Virus record (IMG/VR): IMGVR_UViG_3300017725_000092
Span: 1 to 21,804 of that record
DNA length: 21,804 bases
Origin: a virus
Strand: one strand, 5' to 3'
Within the stretch, counting starts at the first letter, position 1; each line of letters begins with the position of its first letter. A program made the position numbers and the translations under genes. Below the pieces are notes generated by a model. The model had not been told where the DNA came from and did no database searches. It saw only the letters and a program-made list of their open reading frames with translations. Shown piece by piece: positions 2-19,446 of this stretch.

Positions 2-565
2 TGGCAAACAGAAGATTGCAGACGTTGTCATATAGATGTTGTAGATGCTAGAGAGTCTAAAGGTTTATGGATGATGCACGTGTGTATCTTTCCTAATTTG
101 GATAACAATGGTCCTATATATGGCTTTGATGTTATTGCTGGCAAAAACAAAATGACTGGTGCATTTCATGACTTTTCAAAAAGTTCAGGTGGAGAAGATC
201 ACCCGTTAATAGATTGGTTTAAAGAAGCAGTAGAAGAATATGTGCCTAGCAAAAAACGTGAACTACCACAATGGGCATTAAATATTTTTAGCGGTTCAAT
301 GGTTGCGGCAGGTAATGTTAGCAGTGAAGAAGAAAGCAAATCCATTGTAGATATGGCATTATCAAATTTAAAAGTATATTTTGATTCCATTGGTGAATAC
401 AAAAACACAGCAAAAGAAGAAGATACCACAGAAGCACAGAACTATTACTGCCATAATCAACAACAGAATCCGCATACTCCAAGGGTAATGAAGTCATTAG
501 GACTTAAAGAAGAAGATGTTGAAGTGTTCTGTACAGACGCATTATTTCCAAAAATTCAAAAATAA
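2..565 (+). CDS. pcyX: Ferredoxin-dependent bilin reductase, PcyX/PebS-like (5' truncated by window)
   Basis: The frame is open from base 2 to the stop at 563-565, so the gene starts upstream of the window; the ATG codons at 71 and 74 are internal. Visible family features are the CHIDVVDARESKGLWMMHV strand, the YGFDVIAGKNK segment carrying the conserved central Asp of bilin reductases (equivalent to Asp105 of PcyA), GAFHDFSK, and the C-terminal QNYYC...NPHTPRVMKSLG block. The family reduces biliverdin IXalpha with electrons from ferredoxin to phycobilins. Known marine-phage members are PebS (cyanophages) and PcyX (metagenomic phages), both giving phycoerythrobilin. I favour PcyX because the rest of the window looks like a phage of a heterotroph with no photosynthesis genes, but the PcyX/PebS split needs a tree. 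Phage bilin reductases often neighbour a heme oxygenase, which would lie outside the window. The family assignment is secure; the substrate and product are inferred. Confidence 0.9.
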   Translation, partial: WQTEDCRRCHIDVVDARESKGLWMMHVCIFPNLDNNGPIYGFDVIAGKNKMTGAFHDFSKSSGGEDHPLIDWFKEAVEEYVPSKKRELPQWALNIFSGSMVAAGNVSSEEESKSIVDMALSNLKVYFDSIGEYKNTAKEEDTTEAQNYYCHNQQQNPHTPRVMKSLGLKEEDVEVFCTDALFPKIQK

Positions 566-604: not shown

Positions 605-769
605 ATGTTGAAATATCATAATATACAAGACATCAAAGTGAAACTGACTGCCATGAAACAGAAAAGCATGGAAGTAGAAAAAGCAGTTGTTGACAAAAAG
701 CCTGACGAAGAAATTAATTTTCTTGTAGAAGAAATACAACAGATGGCTATGGAAATTGCAAACGCATAA
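605..769 (+). CDS. Small charged helical protein, 54 aa, unknown function
   Basis: This ORF is too short for usual length cut-offs but is supported by position. Its ATG lies 6 bp after the -10 box of promoter P1, and its TAA overlaps the ATG of the next gene (TAATG at 767-771). The protein is highly charged and probably helical, beginning MLKYHNIQDIKVKLTAM, with a Lys/Glu-rich middle and a C-terminal EEIQQMAMEI heptad-like stretch, which suggests a coiled coil. There are no cysteines and no membrane segment. Overlap with the metalloprotease gene suggests translational coupling and perhaps a partner or regulator role. I recognise no family. Confidence 0.6.
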   Translation: MLKYHNIQDIKVKLTAMKQKSMEVEKAVVDKKPDEEINFLVEEIQQMAMEIANA

Positions 770-1233
770 TGATTGTCACAGTTTCGGGCACGAATAGAAA
801 AATCACGGACTTAACTGAAAGTCTTGTGCAATATTGTGCAGACAAATTAAAAATTAAAGATTCGGTTGTGATTGATGTTGAATTTTCAAAATCACTGTAT
901 AAGGAAGATGGTTTATTAGGTGAGGTTGATTTCGACGATTCCAATCATAATCCAAAAGAATTCACTATCACAGTCGACAGCACAGGATCCAGACGCAGAA
1001 TGATGGAGACCATAGCACACGAAATGGTGCACGTGAAACAATATTCTAAAGGTGAACTAGTGGATCTATCCAGATCCAATTCAACCAGATGGCAAAACAA
1101 CATCATCGATAAAAGCACAAATTATTGGGATCTTCCCTGGGAAATAGAAGCACACGGAAAAGAATTAGGACTGTTTATTAGATGGGCTGAGGACAAAGAA
1201 CTGTCCAATCAAGTCTGGACACAAACACAATAA
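769..1233 (+). CDS. Putative zincin-type metalloprotease (HExxH)
   Basis: A 154-aa protein with the zinc-protease signature HEMVH at residues 84-88 in a helix (ETIAHEMVHVKQY), followed about 37 residues later by PWEIEAHGKE (E125/E127 and H129), a plausible site for the third zinc ligand and resembling SprT-like or gluzincin proteins. The N-terminal ~75 residues look like a beta-rich domain. There is no signal peptide, so it should act in the cytoplasm. The start overlaps the preceding small gene (TAATG) and the pair shares promoter P1. Phages of this type often carry such short zincins of unknown target. The next gene is a ClpP-type protease, so two proteases are adjacent although they appear to use different promoters. 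Catalytic class is fairly certain; substrate is unknown. Confidence 0.75.
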   Translation: MIVTVSGTNRKITDLTESLVQYCADKLKIKDSVVIDVEFSKSLYKEDGLLGEVDFDDSNHNPKEFTITVDSTGSRRRMMETIAHEMVHVKQYSKGELVDLSRSNSTRWQNNIIDKSTNYWDLPWEIEAHGKELGLFIRWAEDKELSNQVWTQTQ

Positions 1234-1292: not shown

Positions 1293-1856
1293 ATGAAGAA
1301 ATACGAAAATTACAGTGCAGACGAACGAGCAGAAGTAAGTCTGTTTGATAATGATGTTCACTATCTCAATGGAGAAATTGAGGCAGAAAATATCAGCAAA
1401 GCAATCAAATGGATCCTGTCTGCAAACCTTTCTAGAAAACCTAAGAGAACTTTGACACTGTACGTCAACACTGTTGGCGGTGATCTGTATGAATCATTCG
1501 CATTGATTGATGTGATGAGAAACAGTTATCATCATGTCTCTACAATTGGGATTGGTGCTGTGATGAGTGCAGGCTTTCTAATATTTGCCAGTGGTAAACA
1601 AGGCGAACGTCACATTGGTAAGAACACAGGTATAATGAATCATCAACACAGTGACAACATGGATGCCAAAATGCATGATATGAAAGCACAGATGAAAGAA
1701 AATAAAAACTGTGAACAAAGATGTATGCAAATTTTGAGAGATGCAACAGGTATGTCTATTCCAGAAGTGAATGCAAAATTTATTAAGAATCCTTCCGATC
1801 AATATTATACAGCCAAACAATTGGTTGATTTAAAAATAGCAGATCACATCTTGTAA
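1293..1856 (+). CDS. clpP: ClpP-family serine protease
   Basis: A 187-aa ClpP-fold protein. The catalytic triad can be placed as Ser92 (GAVMSAGFLIF, matching the ClpP GQAASMGAFL strand), His117 (GIMNHQH, matching MIHQP) and Asp169 (NPSDQYYTA, matching the ClpP D-R-F/Y-x-S/T-A block). The NTVGGDLYES segment matches the oxyanion-hole loop (N-S-P-G-G). Length is close to mature bacterial ClpP. The insert after His117 is Met/Lys-rich (residues 123-139) and probably belongs to the handle region. In phages, ClpP-like proteins act either as head-maturation proteases or as host-type peptidases. The late-type promoter favours a role in assembly, but no capsid gene is in view to settle it. Confidence 0.85.
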   Translation: MKKYENYSADERAEVSLFDNDVHYLNGEIEAENISKAIKWILSANLSRKPKRTLTLYVNTVGGDLYESFALIDVMRNSYHHVSTIGIGAVMSAGFLIFASGKQGERHIGKNTGIMNHQHSDNMDAKMHDMKAQMKENKNCEQRCMQILRDATGMSIPEVNAKFIKNPSDQYYTAKQLVDLKIADHIL

Positions 1857-2178: not shown

Positions 2179-2376
2179 TTGAAAATAGAAGTAAGAAACA
2201 ATAATGTAGAAAAAGCATTAAGGTTAATGAAGAAGAAAATGAAAACATCAGGTGTTTTCCAAGAGTTAAAAGATAGACAGTATTATAAAAAGCCTAGCGA
2301 AGTTAAAAGAGAAAAGGCAAAAGAGAGAATGGTCAATCTTAAAAAAGCACAAAAATTAAGAAGAAATTTTTTATAG
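2179..2376 (+). CDS. rpsU: Phage-encoded ribosomal protein bS21
   Basis: A 65-aa protein matching bacterial bS21 across its length: an N-terminal KIEVRNNNVEKALRLMKKK, then GVFQELKDRQYYKKPSEVKR (equivalent to the R-x-x-Y-E-K-P-S/T block of bS21), then a basic tail ending KKAQKLRRNFL. bS21 sits near the anti-Shine-Dalgarno end of 16S rRNA and helps initiation. Phage bS21 genes are known from marine phages, including pelagiphages, and are thought to bias host ribosomes. The start is TTG at 2179, chosen because a perfect AGGAGG (2169-2174) precedes it by 4 nt and no ATG is available. The next gene begins 1 nt after the stop. Identity is confident; the effect on host translation is inference. Confidence 0.88.
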   Translation: MKIEVRNNNVEKALRLMKKKMKTSGVFQELKDRQYYKKPSEVKREKAKERMVNLKKAQKLRRNFL

Positions 2377-6324: not shown

Positions 6325-7329
6325 ATGAAAAACACAATATACGTACTAGAAGGCACTTACAGAAAAACTTCAGTAGAAAATAAAACTTTCCAACTTGTAA
6401 AAGGTTATCAACCACATCCACACAAAGAAGGTGGATTCATTACAGTTAAAATAGAAGACCTAGCAAAATATCCAGGTGCTACAAAAAATCAAATTAGAAT
6501 TAATGTAGAGAATGAGAATCAATTAAGAGACTCTGCTCCTGAACAACCTAAAGAAGAATCAGATGCAGAAACTGTTGAAAGAATGAGACAACGATTTGAT
6601 ATTTTAACAGACATGACTAAAGCCACTAAAAAAGGTGACGTGAGAGCAATGATAGTTAGTGGCCCTCCAGGTGTTGGTAAATCATTTGGTGTTGAGCAAG
6701 TGCTTGACAGATATGGAGTTGTGAGTACACTAGGTAACACAAGACCCAAATATGAAGTTGTAAAAGGTGCAATGAGTCCTATAGGATTATATTGTAAATT
6801 GTATAACTTTTCTGATGCTGACAATGTGTTGGTGTTTGATGACTGTGATTCTATATTGTTAGATGATTTAAGTTTAAACATATTGAAGGCGGCATTGGAT
6901 TCTAAAAAAACTAGAAGAATATGTTGGAACACTGATTCGCATATGTTGAGAAGAGAGGGTGTGCCTGATACTTTTGAATTTGCTGGTTCAGTTATTTTTA
7001 TTACAAACATTAAATTCGATAATGTAAAGAGTAAGAAATTAAGAGATCATTTAGAAGCATTAGAAAGCAGATGTCATTATATTGATCTTACAATTGATAC
7101 TATCAGAGAGAAGATATTAAGAATTAAGCAGATTGTCACAGATGGTATGCTTAAAACATATGCACTACCAAAAGATACAGAAGATGGTATTGTATCATTT
7201 GTAGATGAAAACAAAAGACAATTGAGAGAAATCAGTCTTAGAACTGTGCTTAAAATTGCTGATTTGGCAAAAGCCTTTCCAGAAAATTGGAAAGATATGG
7301 CAAAACAAACAGTATTAAAACCAGTATAG
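6325..7329 (+). CDS. AAA+ ATPase
   Basis: A 334-aa protein. Residues 1-95 are a non-ATPase N-terminal part (basic, then acidic EQPKEESDAE). The AAA+ module starts near residue 100: Walker A GPPGVGKS at 113-120 (Lys119), Walker B VLVFDDCDS with Asp172/Asp173, sensor-1 strand SVIFITNIKF, and an Arg after LEALESRCHYIDL that may serve as arginine finger. The C-terminal helical lid (REISLRTVLKIADLAKAFP) carries the sensor-2-like Arg. Homologous AAA proteins are widespread in T4-like marine phages without assigned function; motor, chaperone or clamp-loading roles are all possible. It has its own promoter (P7) and is followed closely by P8. Confidence 0.85.
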   Translation: MKNTIYVLEGTYRKTSVENKTFQLVKGYQPHPHKEGGFITVKIEDLAKYPGATKNQIRINVENENQLRDSAPEQPKEESDAETVERMRQRFDILTDMTKATKKGDVRAMIVSGPPGVGKSFGVEQVLDRYGVVSTLGNTRPKYEVVKGAMSPIGLYCKLYNFSDADNVLVFDDCDSILLDDLSLNILKAALDSKKTRRICWNTDSHMLRREGVPDTFEFAGSVIFITNIKFDNVKSKKLRDHLEALESRCHYIDLTIDTIREKILRIKQIVTDGMLKTYALPKDTEDGIVSFVDENKRQLREISLRTVLKIADLAKAFPENWKDMAKQTVLKPV

Positions 7330-7368: not shown

Positions 7369-7500
7369 ATGAAAAAAACAAAAAGAAACAAATTAGAAAG
7401 AAAATTAGACGAGTACAACCACACTATGGAATTGATTAGAACAATCGTTCCATTGGTGGTGTTATGTCTACAAATATACATTTTGGTAAAACTGATATGA
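7369..7500 (+). CDS. 43-aa single-pass membrane peptide
   Basis: A short ORF beginning MKKTKRNKLERKLDEYNHTMELI and continuing with one hydrophobic segment (about residues 24-42, RTIVPLVVLCLQIYILVKL), a typical short inner-membrane peptide with a positive, charged N-terminus. The ATG is 7 bp after the -10 box of P8. Its TGA (7498-7500) overlaps an in-frame ATG of the ligase gene (ATGA at 7497). Between 7464 and 7500 both reading frames could be translated. No family recognised; support comes from composition, promoter and the stop/start overlap. Confidence 0.55.
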   Translation: MKKTKRNKLERKLDEYNHTMELIRTIVPLVVLCLQIYILVKLI

Positions 7501-8831
7501 GAACACAACCACAAGAAGTTATTGCTAAACTAGAAGCAGACAATAGTAGATTAGCAAAAGAAAAAATGTTGTTAGAAGCAATGAATGAAGGATTGGATGA
7601 ATTCTTTGAAGGCTTAAGAATGTGTTTGGACAAACTATACACATTTGGAGTCAAGCAAGTGCCAACCAAAGATGATGTTATTTCTGCACAAGGTTGTAAA
7701 TGGGAAGTGTTTAAAGAACTTGCTGAAAAATTACACGCAAGAGAGTTGACTGGTCACGCGGCTAGAGATGCCATTGAACTTGTAATGAGTTCGGCGACAG
7801 CAGAACAATGGAATGGTTTTTATAGAAGAATATTAATAAAAGATTTAAGATGTGGAGTTTCAGAAAAAACTGTAAACTCTGTGGCTAAAAAGAATAAGTT
7901 TGGCAAGTACATGGTGCCCGTGTTTACTTGCCAACTTGCCCATGACAGTACAAACCATGAAAAGAAGTTGGTGGGTAAGAAGATGTTGGAAGTAAAATTA
8001 GACGGAGTTAGAGTGGTTACTATTGTTTATCCAGATGGTAAAGTGGATATGTTCAGTCGTAATGGAAAAGAGTTTACTAACTTTGGACACATACAAACAC
8101 AAATTAGTGAGGTTGTTAAAACTAGTCCACCACCGTACCCAGTTGTATTGGATGGTGAAGTGATGAGTGAAAACTTTCAAGACTTGATGAAACAGGTACA
8201 CAGAAAAGAAGGCGGTAATGCCAAAGATGCAGTGCTTCATTTATTTGATTTTTTACCATTAGAAGATTTTAAAAAAGGTGCTTGGGACAAAACACAGACA
8301 TTGAGAACCCAAATGTTAAAAGCCTGGTATGAACAACACAAAACCAATTTAGACGCCGTTACAGTGCTGGACCACGAAATTGTGGACTTAGACACACCTG
8401 AAGGTCAAAAGACTTATACAGAGGTGAATAAGAGGGCCGTACAGGGAGGTTATGAAGGTATTATGATTAAAGATATTGATGCTTCGTATCAATGTAAAAG
8501 AAGTCATGCTTGGTTAAAATTAAAGCCATTTATAGAAGTAAGTTTAGAAGTTAAAGCCACAGAAGAAGGTACAGGAAGAAATGTAGGCAAACTAGGTGCA
8601 TTGATTTGCGAAGGTTTAGATGATGGCAAGTTAATTAAAACAAATGTAGGTTCTGGTTTGTCAGATGATAACAGAGATCAGTTTTGGAAAAACAAAGAAC
8701 AATTGATAGGTCAAATCGTAGAAGTGAGAGCAGATGCTGTCACAAAGAATCAGGATAGCGAACAAGAATACTCATTGAGATTTCCAAGATTTATGAGATT
8801 CAGGGGATTTGAAATTGGTGAAAAAATCTAA
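7464..8831 (+). CDS. ATP-dependent DNA ligase (T4 gp30-like)
   Basis: A 455-aa ligase (T4 gp30 is 487). Numbered from 7464, the adenylylation motif I is KLDGVR with nucleophile Lys178. Motif III is SRNGKEF, motif IIIa VVLDGEVM, motif IV EGIMIKD and motif V WLKLKP; an OB-fold domain follows (residues ~370-455). The N-terminal ~150 residues are a helical DNA-binding domain (LIKDLRCGVSEKTVN is typical of gp30 and related ligases). It seals nicks in duplex DNA using ATP, as needed for Okazaki fragment joining and repair. Start: ATG 7464 is preceded by GGTGG, but ATG 7497 overlaps the stop of the 43-aa gene (ATGA), removes 11 residues and is equally likely. Confidence 0.93.
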   Translation: MSTNIHFGKTDMRTQPQEVIAKLEADNSRLAKEKMLLEAMNEGLDEFFEGLRMCLDKLYTFGVKQVPTKDDVISAQGCKWEVFKELAEKLHARELTGHAARDAIELVMSSATAEQWNGFYRRILIKDLRCGVSEKTVNSVAKKNKFGKYMVPVFTCQLAHDSTNHEKKLVGKKMLEVKLDGVRVVTIVYPDGKVDMFSRNGKEFTNFGHIQTQISEVVKTSPPPYPVVLDGEVMSENFQDLMKQVHRKEGGNAKDAVLHLFDFLPLEDFKKGAWDKTQTLRTQMLKAWYEQHKTNLDAVTVLDHEIVDLDTPEGQKTYTEVNKRAVQGGYEGIMIKDIDASYQCKRSHAWLKLKPFIEVSLEVKATEEGTGRNVGKLGALICEGLDDGKLIKTNVGSGLSDDNRDQFWKNKEQLIGQIVEVRADAVTKNQDSEQEYSLRFPRFMRFRGFEIGEKI

Positions 8832-12036: not shown

Positions 12037-12882
12037 ATGAGTGAAATGCAAGAGATAAAAAAACCTACAATTCAGGAACGAATTCAAAAAAGGGTTCATG
12101 AAATATTGGAACCAATTGAAGTTTGGTTGGATAGATATGTTGTACAACCTGATAAATTTAACCCTGATAAATTTAAATTAGTGGATGTGTTCAAGAAAGA
12201 ACAAGTGGGCGGTGTACACGCAAGAAAGATCATGGAAATGTACGAACCTCAATATCAAGAATACAAAGACTTGTTATCATTAAGAGAAAAAAATTTAAAA
12301 TTTAAAGAAATAACAGATGAAGAAGACAACGATTCTGAGGAAAGACAACTGTTGGAATCATATGAAGATGTTGATAATAACATAATCCAAAAAGGAATCA
12401 AAGCATACGATAATATTTTTGAAGCCTGTGATAGAATGATAGCAATTGCCAATGCTAATCGCAAGCCAAGAAAGAAAAAAGAGAAATCACCTGAGAAATT
12501 AGTATCTAAAATGCAGTTCAAAGTTGAAGAACAGAAATTATCGCTCAAATCAATTGATGCAACAGAAATCATATATGCTGAACAACTTTGGGTATACAAT
12601 ACCAAGACTAGAAAACTAGGTCATTACAAAGCAAAGGTGTTGGATCCAAGAGGATTGAGCCGACCAGGAACAGGCTTAACAGTTAAAGGAACATCCATAA
12701 AAGGTTTTGATGAAGAACACAGTGTTCAAAAAACACTCAGAAAACCCGAACAGCAGTTGAAAGAGTTTGCTGATTCAGGCCCCAAGAAGGTAGTAGAGCT
12801 ATTTGATGCTATTAAAACAATGGGCATTAAACTGAACGGACGTGTGAATTCTGAAGTCATTTTGTTAAGAGCAGTTAGATAA
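12037..12882 (+). CDS. Charged helical protein, 281 aa, unknown function
   Basis: Begins MSEMQEIKKPTIQERIQKRV. Three parts are visible: an N-terminal helical region (~1-95), an acidic-helical middle (EITDEEDNDSEERQLLESYED) followed by a basic linker (NRKPRKKKEKSPEK, ~143-156), and a C-terminal beta-containing domain (~160-281) with IIYAEQLWVYNTKTRKLGHY and GTSIKGFDEEHSVQKTLRK. The last pattern (GFDEEHSxQ...LRKP) recalls hypothetical proteins of T4-like marine phages. No catalytic motif seen. The inverted repeat and short or absent leader at its start match the next late-type gene, and its stop codon lies in that gene's promoter box. A virion or assembly role is possible. Confidence 0.7.
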   Translation: MSEMQEIKKPTIQERIQKRVHEILEPIEVWLDRYVVQPDKFNPDKFKLVDVFKKEQVGGVHARKIMEMYEPQYQEYKDLLSLREKNLKFKEITDEEDNDSEERQLLESYEDVDNNIIQKGIKAYDNIFEACDRMIAIANANRKPRKKKEKSPEKLVSKMQFKVEEQKLSLKSIDATEIIYAEQLWVYNTKTRKLGHYKAKVLDPRGLSRPGTGLTVKGTSIKGFDEEHSVQKTLRKPEQQLKEFADSGPKKVVELFDAIKTMGIKLNGRVNSEVILLRAVR

Positions 12883-15169: not shown

Positions 15170-15619
15170 ATGAGCAAACATTATAGTACAAAACATTATG
15201 GACACAACATTGGTTTATCAGCAGTGTTCAGACAACCTAACGCAGATCATTCGCATTGTCATTTTTTGCATGGATACAGTCTAGCATTTACATTTACATT
15301 TGGTTGTGATAAATTAGACAACAAAAACTGGGCAGTGGACTTTGGAGGATTGAAACCTCTTAAGGCATGGCTGGCAGATTCATTTGATCACAAACTTTGT
15401 TTAGATGTTAATGATCCACATTTGGAAAAATTTAAAGAACTTGAAGCACTGGACTTGGCAGACATTAGAATGTTCGATGGTGTTGGTGCAGAAAAATTTG
15501 CCGAACACGCCTTTAACTTTGCAGACAAACTTATACGTGAAGCAACAGACAATCGTTGTTATGTGGTGAAAGTTGAATGTGCTGAGCATGGAGCCAACAG
15601 TGCAATCTACGAAGGCTAA
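15170..15619 (+). CDS. queD: 6-pyruvoyl/6-carboxy-tetrahydropterin synthase family protein (QueD-like)
   Basis: A 149-aa PTPS/QueD-fold protein. The region SAVFRQPNADHSHCHFLHGYS carries the catalytic Cys30 and LHG His34. SFDHKLCL supplies the Asp73-His74 pair, and the C-terminal VECAEHGANSAIYEG carries the substrate-anchoring Glu. QueD converts 7,8-dihydroneopterin triphosphate to 6-carboxytetrahydropterin, the second step to queuosine and 7-deazaguanine DNA bases. Compared with E. coli QueD, the first zinc ligand (FEAAH) is Phe20 here and the third (HGH) is Tyr36, so only one classical ligand remains, with extra His at 27, 29 and 31. I recall the same SAVFRQ...HSHC...HGY form in other marine phages and alphaproteobacteria, so it looks like a subfamily. 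No QueC, QueE or FolE is in the window. Confidence 0.82.
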   Translation: MSKHYSTKHYGHNIGLSAVFRQPNADHSHCHFLHGYSLAFTFTFGCDKLDNKNWAVDFGGLKPLKAWLADSFDHKLCLDVNDPHLEKFKELEALDLADIRMFDGVGAEKFAEHAFNFADKLIREATDNRCYVVKVECAEHGANSAIYEG

Positions 15620-17987: not shown

Positions 17988-18002
17988 CGATAAATATCGT
18001 TA
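17985..18002 (+). repeat. Inverted repeat spanning the uvdE stop, late-like box and SOD start
   Basis: TAACGATA (17985-17992) and TATCGTTA (17995-18002) are perfect 8-bp arms around AA. It begins with the uvdE stop codon and ends with the A of the SOD start codon. As RNA it could form a 7-bp stem with loop AAAT. Confidence 0.7.
17989..17996 (+). promoter_or_regulatory. Late-like promoter box GATAAATA (SOD)
   Basis: Inside the inverted repeat 17985-18002, 5 bp before ATG 18002; same variant as at 12878. No room for a ribosome-binding site on the resulting transcript. Confidence 0.5.
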
Positions 18003-18556
18003 TGAAACTAGAACAATTTACTGAATCAAAACAAAATAGAGAATCAAAACTAGAAGTGGTGAAACTGCCTTTCAAAATGAAAGAACTATCACCTGTATTA
18101 TCTGAAGCAAATATAGATTATCATTACAATGTATTAACCAAAGCATATGTGAGAAGATACAATGATGGTGAAGGTGATGCAGATTTTAATTACGGTGGAG
18201 CGAAACTTCACAATATGTTTTGGTTACAATTACAAGCACCTCGTCCAGGTAACAAACCAACTGGTGAAATTAAAACTTTAATAGAATCAAAACACGAATC
18301 ATTTGAAGCATTCAAAAAAGAATTAATTAGATCAGCAATGACCATACAAGGTTCAGGCTGGGTGTATGTTGCCAAAAATGGTAATATCAAAACTACACCA
18401 AATCAATCATACAAAACAGACATTCTAATGCCTGTAGATATGTGGGAACATTCATTTTCGGATTATGTTCCTGCTAAAGATGCCAAGAAAAAATACATTG
18501 AAGGTATGATGAGAATAATTAATTGGGAGTCAATAAATTTAAGACTACAATCTTAA
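18002..18556 (+). CDS. sod: Fe/Mn-family superoxide dismutase
   Basis: A 184-aa protein with the Fe/Mn-SOD layout. Metal ligands align as His41 (IDYHYNVLTKAYV), His70 (GGAKLHNMFW), Asp146 and His150 (VDMWEHSF). The gateway Tyr34 equivalent is Tyr49, but the His30 equivalent is Leu45. The GG before the second ligand and the Gln135 in TPNQ match the Mn-type arrangement (Gln from the C-terminal domain) rather than the Fe-type Gln in the N-terminal domain. GSGWVYVAKNG and the final INWESINL are also family features. It would dismutate superoxide to peroxide and oxygen in the infected cell. A short N-terminal extension (~20 residues, EQFTESKQNRESK) is unusual. The rest of the active site looks intact; activity is inferred. 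Confidence 0.85.
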   Translation: MKLEQFTESKQNRESKLEVVKLPFKMKELSPVLSEANIDYHYNVLTKAYVRRYNDGEGDADFNYGGAKLHNMFWLQLQAPRPGNKPTGEIKTLIESKHESFEAFKKELIRSAMTIQGSGWVYVAKNGNIKTTPNQSYKTDILMPVDMWEHSFSDYVPAKDAKKKYIEGMMRIINWESINLRLQS

Positions 18557-19095: not shown

Positions 19096-19446
19096 ATGGC
19101 TATTTTAACACTGACAAGCACTGCACAGACGCAAATTAAAACACTGTGCGAAAAAAACAGCAAGTATGCTGTTAGATTGGGTATTAAAGGCGGTGGATGT
19201 GCTGGTTTTTCCTATGATTGGAGTTTTGCTGATCAATCACAAATTGAATCAGGAGATGAACTAATCGAAGTTGATGGTGGGAAATTAGTGATAGATACCA
19301 GTAGTGTGATGTTCTTGTTTGGAACTGAGATTGATTACGTTAATGAAGTATTTGGTTCACAGTTTCAAATCAACAATCCAAACACCAAGAGTGCTTGTGG
19401 TTGTGGAGAAAGCATTCAATTTGATATGGATAGAGTAAATGGCTAA
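19096..19446 (+). CDS. IscA/HesB-type iron-sulfur carrier
   Basis: A 116-aa A-type carrier with all three conserved cysteines: Cys35 in KGGGCAGFSYDW and Cys101/Cys103 in SACGCGESIQF, at the usual C-x65-C-x-C spacing. LTSTAQTQIKTL and LVIDTSSVMFLFGTEIDYV are further family segments. A-type carriers hold Fe-S clusters or iron and pass them to apoproteins. HesB-like genes are known auxiliary genes in marine phages. Here a possible client is a phage Fe-S protein outside the window, or host ferredoxin, which would also supply the bilin reductase. No strong ribosome-binding site is seen at the start. The stop overlaps the start of the large fibre gene by 8 nt. Confidence 0.9.
   Translation: MAILTLTSTAQTQIKTLCEKNSKYAVRLGIKGGGCAGFSYDWSFADQSQIESGDELIEVDGGKLVIDTSSVMFLFGTEIDYVNEVFGSQFQINNPNTKSACGCGESIQFDMDRVNG

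Follow-up and report, generated by a model that had tools for sequence, protein, structure and literature searches.

Gene content of the locus

The stretch of DNA analysed here (the window; 21,804 bases, the complete virus contig of an IMG/VR record) starts inside a reading frame that extends from the contig edge to a TAA stop (Table 1). The frame matches PF05996 with 60.9 bits (Pfam cut-off 31) and PHROG 7278 ('ferredoxin oxidoreductase', E 3.5e-20); its closest solved structure is PcyX_EBK42635 (5owg, E 3.9e-71), followed by PcyA (1.5e-12). The protein contains the motif YGFDVIAG, the Asp of which aligns with the conserved Asp of ferredoxin-dependent bilin reductases (FDBRs), presumably Asp105 of PcyA. 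A first-pass annotation, made from the letters alone, had proposed a truncated bilin reductase with its central Asp in this motif. The Pfam match, the match to 5owg and the aligned Asp bear this out, and by homology the frame encodes an FDBR.

Since the record comprises the entire contig, the upstream side of the gene cannot be read there: the window holds the 3' 187 codons of pcyX, the 5' end being lost at the contig edge. Among the relatives in viral contigs (best 80 of 256 kept), a protein of 232 amino acids (L003, on the 51.6-kb contig G001) is identical to the window PcyX over the common part, and the N-terminus of about 45 residues lacking from the window was read from it. At the DNA level, G001 and the window are 95.3–98.9% identical in five aligned blocks spanning most of the window; alignment is lacking for about 0.7 kb near 10.4–11.1 kb and for three shorter stretches. 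Upstream of pcyX in G001, and on the same strand, we found genes for Hsp20 (PF00011), ClpS (PF02617) and a heme oxygenase (HemO; PF01126, E 5.3e-25), in the order Hsp20-ClpS-HemO-(small ORF)-PcyX. The upstream heme oxygenase gene that the first-pass annotation had advised looking for is thus present in the near-identical contig.

Table 1. Features of the window and their relatives in Pelagibacter phage Mosig, Pseudomonas phage PA5oct and other phages
Feature	Position	Strand	Matches and occurrence
PcyX-type bilin reductase, 3' part	2..565	+	187 aa
54-aa ORF	605..769	+	directly 3' of pcyX; no Pfam or NCBIfam match; relatives there in 51/82 loci (in the gene call used, an overlapping ORF takes the place of the window's own copy)
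154-aa protein, HExxH motif (HEMVH, by eye)	769..1233	+	PHROG 10499 (function unknown); family in 63/82 loci
ClpP-family protease	1293..1856	+	PF00574; ORF family in 44/82 loci
bS21-like small ORF	2179..2376	+	relatives in Mosig (52%) and PA5oct (45%)
AAA ATPase-like protein	6325..7329	+	PHROG 1250; best phage matches in the PA5oct group (47%)
ATP-dependent DNA ligase	7464..8831	+	27% to PA5oct ligase; 69% to 335-kb phage contig
281-aa protein	12037..12882	+	PA5oct homologue (31%); no Mosig match
6-pyruvoyl-tetrahydropterin synthase (PTPS)/QueD-like protein	15170..15619	+	PA5oct homologue adjoins PA5oct Hsp20-ClpS
Superoxide-dismutase (SOD)-like protein	18002..18556	+	below NCBIfam cut-offs; homologue of PA5oct gp223
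IscA-like Fe-S biogenesis protein	19096..19446	+	PF01521

The bS21-like ORF has kin in both Mosig and PA5oct and is therefore uninformative on lineage. For the ligase, the top-ranked phage matches overall are mostly phages of Gram-positive hosts.

Position within the PcyX family

The family tree, a quick search without bootstrap, contained 64 rows: 38 thinned from 165 PcyX loci, the window, five cyanophage PcyA, one PebS, 15 cyanobacterial FDBRs and four FDBRs of Acetobacteraceae. All PcyX rows fell into one group with the window inside (SH-aLRT 98). This group stands apart from cyanobacterial and cyanophage PcyA, and seven PebA/PebB/PebS-like rows (the labels PebA and PebB are our own reading of the grouping) are separated from it by a branch of support 100. 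The Acetobacteraceae FDBRs adjoin the PcyX group (support 99), an adjacency that matches the AX clade described in PMC10151467 and is not new. The tree program gave warnings on two points: long-branch joins that connect some PcyA/PebS rows with others, and odd composition of the Acetobacteraceae rows and some others. The window did not group with PebS or PebA. A branch of 7.43 makes the position of the only PebS row unsure, but nothing draws the window toward it. The first-pass annotation had assigned the gene to the PcyX type and named a tree as the means to tell it from cyanophage PebS. The position inside the PcyX clade, apart from PebS and cyanophage PcyA, agrees with this assignment, as does a marker residue, the PcyX-specific Asp55, which takes the place of PcyA Glu76 (PMC11480375). 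The Asp55 equivalent, the central Asp and both His are kept in 166 of 166 sequences, the window counted, with Asp55 assigned to its column by our own alignment.

The AF2 model (mean pLDDT 92.1) gave 5owg first and PcyA second in a fold search of the PDB. PcyX_EBK42635 is thus the top match by sequence and by fold, of the same family and with the same marker Asp and His. It differs from the window protein in belonging nearer to the Mosig-type clade (463 bits against full-length Mosig PcyX vs 279 bits against full-length L003 PcyX). Judged by these scores, the sole solved PcyX that we found is nearer the Mosig type; a solved structure for a jumbo-type PcyX (defined below) was not among the structure matches. 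Cyanophage bilin reductases are 24–28% identical to the window PcyX.

The hemO-pcyX neighbourhood

To describe the gene context we used 165 PcyX loci, consisting of the best 80 of 256 and the best 80 of 194 relatives of two queries, four loci from metagenome-assembled genomes (MAGs) and Mosig. Loci with ClpS upstream were by rule named jumbo type, and those followed downstream by T4 neck or gp3 genes were called Mosig type. This gave 81 jumbo-type and 74 Mosig-type loci, none with both flanks and 10 assigned to neither; as the loci were drawn from the best-ranked relatives, these proportions are no census. The linkage of ClpS to PcyX is partly definitional, since ClpS served to name the jumbo type. 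HemO lies at most 3 kb upstream in every locus with at least 800 bases of upstream sequence (81/81 jumbo-type, 54/54 Mosig-type and 7/7 of neither type). Its proximal His is present in 148 of 157 aligned HemO sequences of all types, the remaining nine having gaps; no NCBIfam model matched HemO, while the scores of ClpA and ClpP stayed below the NCBIfam cut-offs. In the 48 jumbo-type loci with 7 kb downstream, ClpP was seen in 17 and the HExxH gene in 39 (best hit only), so these two genes are only partly linked to HemO-PcyX. In a careful tree with a distant outgroup, the jumbo rows did not form one clade and the Mosig type was nested within the jumbo type; unity of the jumbo type was not rejected (p-AU 0.275), with a very long outgroup branch.

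The gap between hemO and pcyX varies in content. Of the 81 jumbo-type loci, 35 have a conserved ORF of about 60 amino acids there (e.g. L003:9678-9869, approximate coordinates), which in the majority runs into the start of pcyX or adjoins it. Mosig-type loci mostly have hemO overlapping pcyX, so that such an ORF would not fit. Single loci have other insertions: a tryptophan halogenase (L065:8376-9869), a carbon-nitrogen hydrolase with a second heme oxygenase and a 2OG-Fe(II) oxygenase (L067:1707-3923), two ORFs without Pfam match (L054:7956-9861) and, by reading, similar hydrolase-like ORFs (L206:3916-4971 and L207:4108-4971).

Kinship with phage PA5oct

The first-pass annotation had read the window as part of a T4-like marine phage. 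The 20 long contigs of the window's PcyX group do not support this: none matches the Mosig terminase, and none matches the terminase family PF03237, for which only Mosig itself was positive. PA5oct TerL gave no match in the six of these contigs that were tried. A clamp loader of the PA5oct type (53–57%; Mosig clamp loader 37%) is present in 8 of the 20; of the 12 contigs without it, 11 are shorter than 60 kb and one measures 82 kb. In the 148-kb contig G002, the PcyX of which is 94% identical to that of the window, the clamp loader is 56% identical to that of PA5oct.

When G002 was compared with whole PA5oct (leaving out 150001-154999) and Mosig, 81 of its 216 ORFs were matched, 47 best by PA5oct and 34 best by Mosig. 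The PA5oct-best set is the core, with its order largely kept (DNA polymerase 45%, clamp loader as above, exonuclease 54%, PhoH 50%, ClpA 42%). The Mosig-best set is mostly accessory (NrdA 71%, NrdB 65%, Hsp20 71%, ThyX 60%, PcyX 56%, HemO 44%). Best-hit totals (Mosig/PA5oct) favour Mosig in the window (8/6 of 14), G001 (19/11 of 30) and G011 (37/27 of 64), and PA5oct in G002 (34/47), G006 (21/25 of 46) and a 335-kb contig (50/90 of 140). Because the surroundings of pcyX abound in genes that Mosig also has, we read the lineage from core genes and longer relatives, not from the totals. The PA5oct-type replication core is present in the 148-kb contig and lies outside the window itself; the window's own species is known only as the 51.6-kb contig and its 94% relative as 148 kb, both without a terminase.

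The longest relative came from a scan of a species-genome collection, in which the best 80 of 148 FDBR relatives were kept; four of these 80 are PcyX (60–69%), the other 76 reaching at most 33%. One PcyX (L206; 60% identical) is located on the 335,231-base contig PBPT01000016.1 (L290-L306), filed in a Neomarinimicrobiota MAG, in a locus made up of HemO, a hydrolase-like ORF and PcyX. This contig, of whose 414 ORFs 140 match PA5oct or Mosig, resembles PA5oct in TerL (54%; Mosig 32%), major head protein (66%; 33%), portal (49%; 30%), UvsX (64%) and DnaB (51%). With these virion and replication genes it represents all or the greater part of a jumbo phage genome, and it combines a PA5oct-type TerL and capsid with a size above 200 kb. 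The order PcyX, ligase, ORF12037, PTPS, UvdE, IscA is kept on it, and 20 of the 38 window ORFs have homologues there (median identity 47%). Together with the clamp loaders, the TerL, head protein, portal and UvsX of this relative oppose the T4-like reading.

An equal-scoring terminase match came from another contig (C77) of this MAG. MAG binning was dropped as host evidence because the four PcyX MAG contigs are filed under four unlike groups. Contamination probably accounts for a relative of the bilin reductases (L268, 29% to PcyX) in a contig assigned to a MAG of Bifidobacterium breve.

PA5oct (Arenbergviridae, Wroclawvirus according to its record) shares with the jumbo contigs the largely kept order of core genes, the Hsp20-ClpS pair, ClpA, DNA polymerase and clamp loader, to which the 335-kb contig adds TerL and the head protein. 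It differs in that HemO and PcyX were not found by tblastn, and the SOD-like gp223 comes after ClpS instead. Having the size and place of HemO, gp223 was examined as a candidate relative of it and proved to be none; it matches the SOD-like protein of the window.

Pelagibacter phage Mosig (EXVC030M), an isolate on HTCC1062 (PMC7892664), has hemO and pcyX side by side on the same strand. A PcyX-bearing phage of a non-photosynthetic host is therefore not new, and the statement of the first-pass annotation that PcyX-type enzymes were found in metagenomic phage DNA is incomplete. Mosig resembles the jumbo contigs further in lacking PF00124 and in its permuted alphaproteobacterial-type tmRNA. In contrast, it is T4-like, has hemO-pcyX next to neck genes and 2OG oxygenases, encodes a 2Fe-2S ferredoxin of its own and an annotated ferrochelatase, and its PcyX and HemO are distant from those of the 148-kb contig (see above).

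Taken together, we consider it probable (about 0.8), from comparison of sequences, that the phage carrying this PcyX-type bilin reductase is a marine jumbo phage with replication and virion genes akin to those of Pseudomonas phage PA5oct, and not a T4-like pelagiphage. The accessory genes in common with Mosig may explain the earlier T4-like reading, and they fit gene exchange between jumbo and Mosig-type phages.

Several further genes were observed in these contigs. The 148-kb contig has genes for ClpA, for ClpS and for two proteins resembling ClpP (at L087:1058-3307, L089:12053-12616, L089:14927-15232 and L086:2-490), as well as, by reading, GroEL-like and DnaK-like ORFs. The phage matches (8 records) of the ORF at L091:1621-3552 are pelagi- and methylophages and Acinetobacter phage MD-2021a; with 34.5% identity to an HTVC008M protein annotated as adenylate/guanylyl cyclase, it is another accessory gene shared with SAR11 phages.

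Host and photosynthesis genes

In line with what the first-pass annotation had noted for the window, no photosynthesis genes were found in the records searched: the photosystem reaction-centre family PF00124 was found in none of 21 records, Mosig among them, and tblastn with psbA of P-SSM2 was negative for the window, for four contigs and for the 335-kb contig. The phycobilisome family PF00502 was found in none of 22 records. GAF domains had no match in the 20 viral contigs, Mosig and the 335-kb contig; two matches lie on other contigs of that MAG.

ARAGORN detected one permuted tmRNA in each of the four jumbo contigs scanned. All four match the Rfam family alpha_tmRNA, like that of Mosig; the tmRNA of the 335-kb contig was called by ARAGORN alone. 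A permuted tmRNA of alphaproteobacterial type points to an alphaproteobacterial host. The type is weak host evidence, since phage Melnitz of OM43 carries an alphaproteobacterial-type tmRNA and two-piece tmRNAs also occur in some Gammaproteobacteria and Cyanobacteria (PMC9004378).

AlaS was found in 4 of the 20 contigs and in the 335-kb contig (E < 1e-40), with none seen in the other 16. It is the Shemin enzyme, and the phage protein scored 543.6 bits against TIGR01821 (cut-off 338.55). The valaS-hemO-pcyA/X cassettes of aquatic phages described in PMC11480375 are similar in that AlaS occurs with HemO and PcyX in one contig; they differ in that the marine contigs of that study were assigned to pelagiphages by gp13. 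In one jumbo contig we also noticed a glutamine riboswitch (RF01739, 49.3 bits; L102:4460-4512).

Possible role of the HemO-PcyX pair

From what is known of the two families, HemO would open heme to biliverdin IXalpha, Fe(II) and CO, and PcyX would carry out a four-electron reduction of the biliverdin at the expense of reduced ferredoxin, giving phycoerythrobilin. The plant-type ferredoxin family PF00111, the only one searched, was found in Mosig alone (1 of 21) and in none of the jumbo contigs, so jumbo members probably use host ferredoxin. The pair may serve heme turnover in an infected alphaproteobacterial heterotroph, in which iron would be freed, biliverdin removed and, in some members, heme synthesis sustained by AlaS; we tentatively propose this as the most likely role, at somewhat less than even odds. 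For the marine hemO-pcyX-alaS cassettes, treated as of pelagiphage origin, PMC11480375 calls the purpose enigmatic and mentions iron supply as one idea.

It is possible, if rather unlikely, that phycoerythrobilin itself is what matters: it might act inside infected cells as a chromophore, an antioxidant, a photoprotectant or a signal, with iron release as a by-product. PcyX yields a defined product and does not merely remove biliverdin, and bilin-binding globins are found in other bacterial bilin-reductase clusters (PMC10151467). On the other hand, the lack of PF00502 and GAF matches (see above) speaks against this use; a bilin acceptor might conceivably be supplied by the host.

The heme turnover proposed above could be extended to protein breakdown, as the Hsp20 and ClpS neighbours, with ClpA and ClpP elsewhere in long contigs, suggest such a link. 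Phage ClpS (with ClpA and ClpP in the long contigs) would degrade selected host proteins, HemO would open the heme set free, PcyX would make phycoerythrobilin from the biliverdin, and AlaS would refill the heme pool, so that iron would flow to phage iron enzymes. A heme-protein salvage module of this kind in marine jumbo phages of alphaproteobacterial heterotrophs, with HemO-PcyX moved between the jumbo lineage and the unlike T4-like SAR11 phages, is doubtful. The idea is weakened because PA5oct has Hsp20-ClpS without HemO, so that the HemO-ClpS link may be only one of place, and because 31 records of other phages, most of them large, also have ClpS-like genes.

That enzymes of the jumbo clade make phycocyanobilin or dihydrobiliverdin appears improbable. 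The enzyme of freshwater phage CB_2 proved to be a true PcyA (PMC11480375), and the solved 5owg is, by the bit scores given above, far closer to the Mosig PcyX than to the L003 protein. CB_2, however, is without the PcyX-specific Asp55 (PMC11480375), which in the jumbo clade is invariant along with both His and the central Asp.

Still less probable is that the window gene belongs to a T4-like pelagimyophage, the source inferred in the 2024 cassette paper for its own marine contigs. Mosig does carry HemO-PcyX, it is close in NrdA, Hsp20 and ThyX, and the best-hit counts tilt to it in the window, G001 and G011; yet the replication and virion core genes are of the PA5oct type, the Mosig terminase is absent from all 20 contigs, the two flank types never meet in the 165 PcyX loci, and the 335-kb contig and the clamp loaders contradict this origin unless they are chimeric. 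A cyanophage pigment gene (PebS or cyanophage PcyA) serving the antenna of a cyanobacterial host can be rejected as the least probable of all, in view of the tree, identities of only 24–28%, the lack of PF00124 and PF00502 matches and the alphaproteobacterial-type tmRNA, even though many cyanophages have bilin reductases and a 2026 paper (PMC13197396) still places PcyX with phages of cyanobacteria.

Implications

In the literature searched, to which subscription papers mostly did not belong, nothing joined PcyX to jumbo phages, ClpS and Hsp20 to heme oxygenase in phages, or heme oxygenase to jumbo phages of SAR11, and the combination of jumbo phage and phycoerythrobilin returned one cyanophage review only; the main text of PMC11480375 does not contain 'jumbo' or 'huge phage'. 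PcyX has so far been explained as a pelagiphage gene. HemO-PcyX in a second, PA5oct-related phage lineage is most likely a known family in a new phage setting. The different backbone and neighbourhood of this lineage suggest that the pair is portable and selected in its own right. A pathway usually tied to photosynthesis would thus be common to two unlike groups of phages of probably non-photosynthetic bacteria. What a phage gains by taking heme breakdown past biliverdin in a non-photosynthetic host can now be asked in two gene settings, and the jumbo-type PcyX form an enzyme group for assay.
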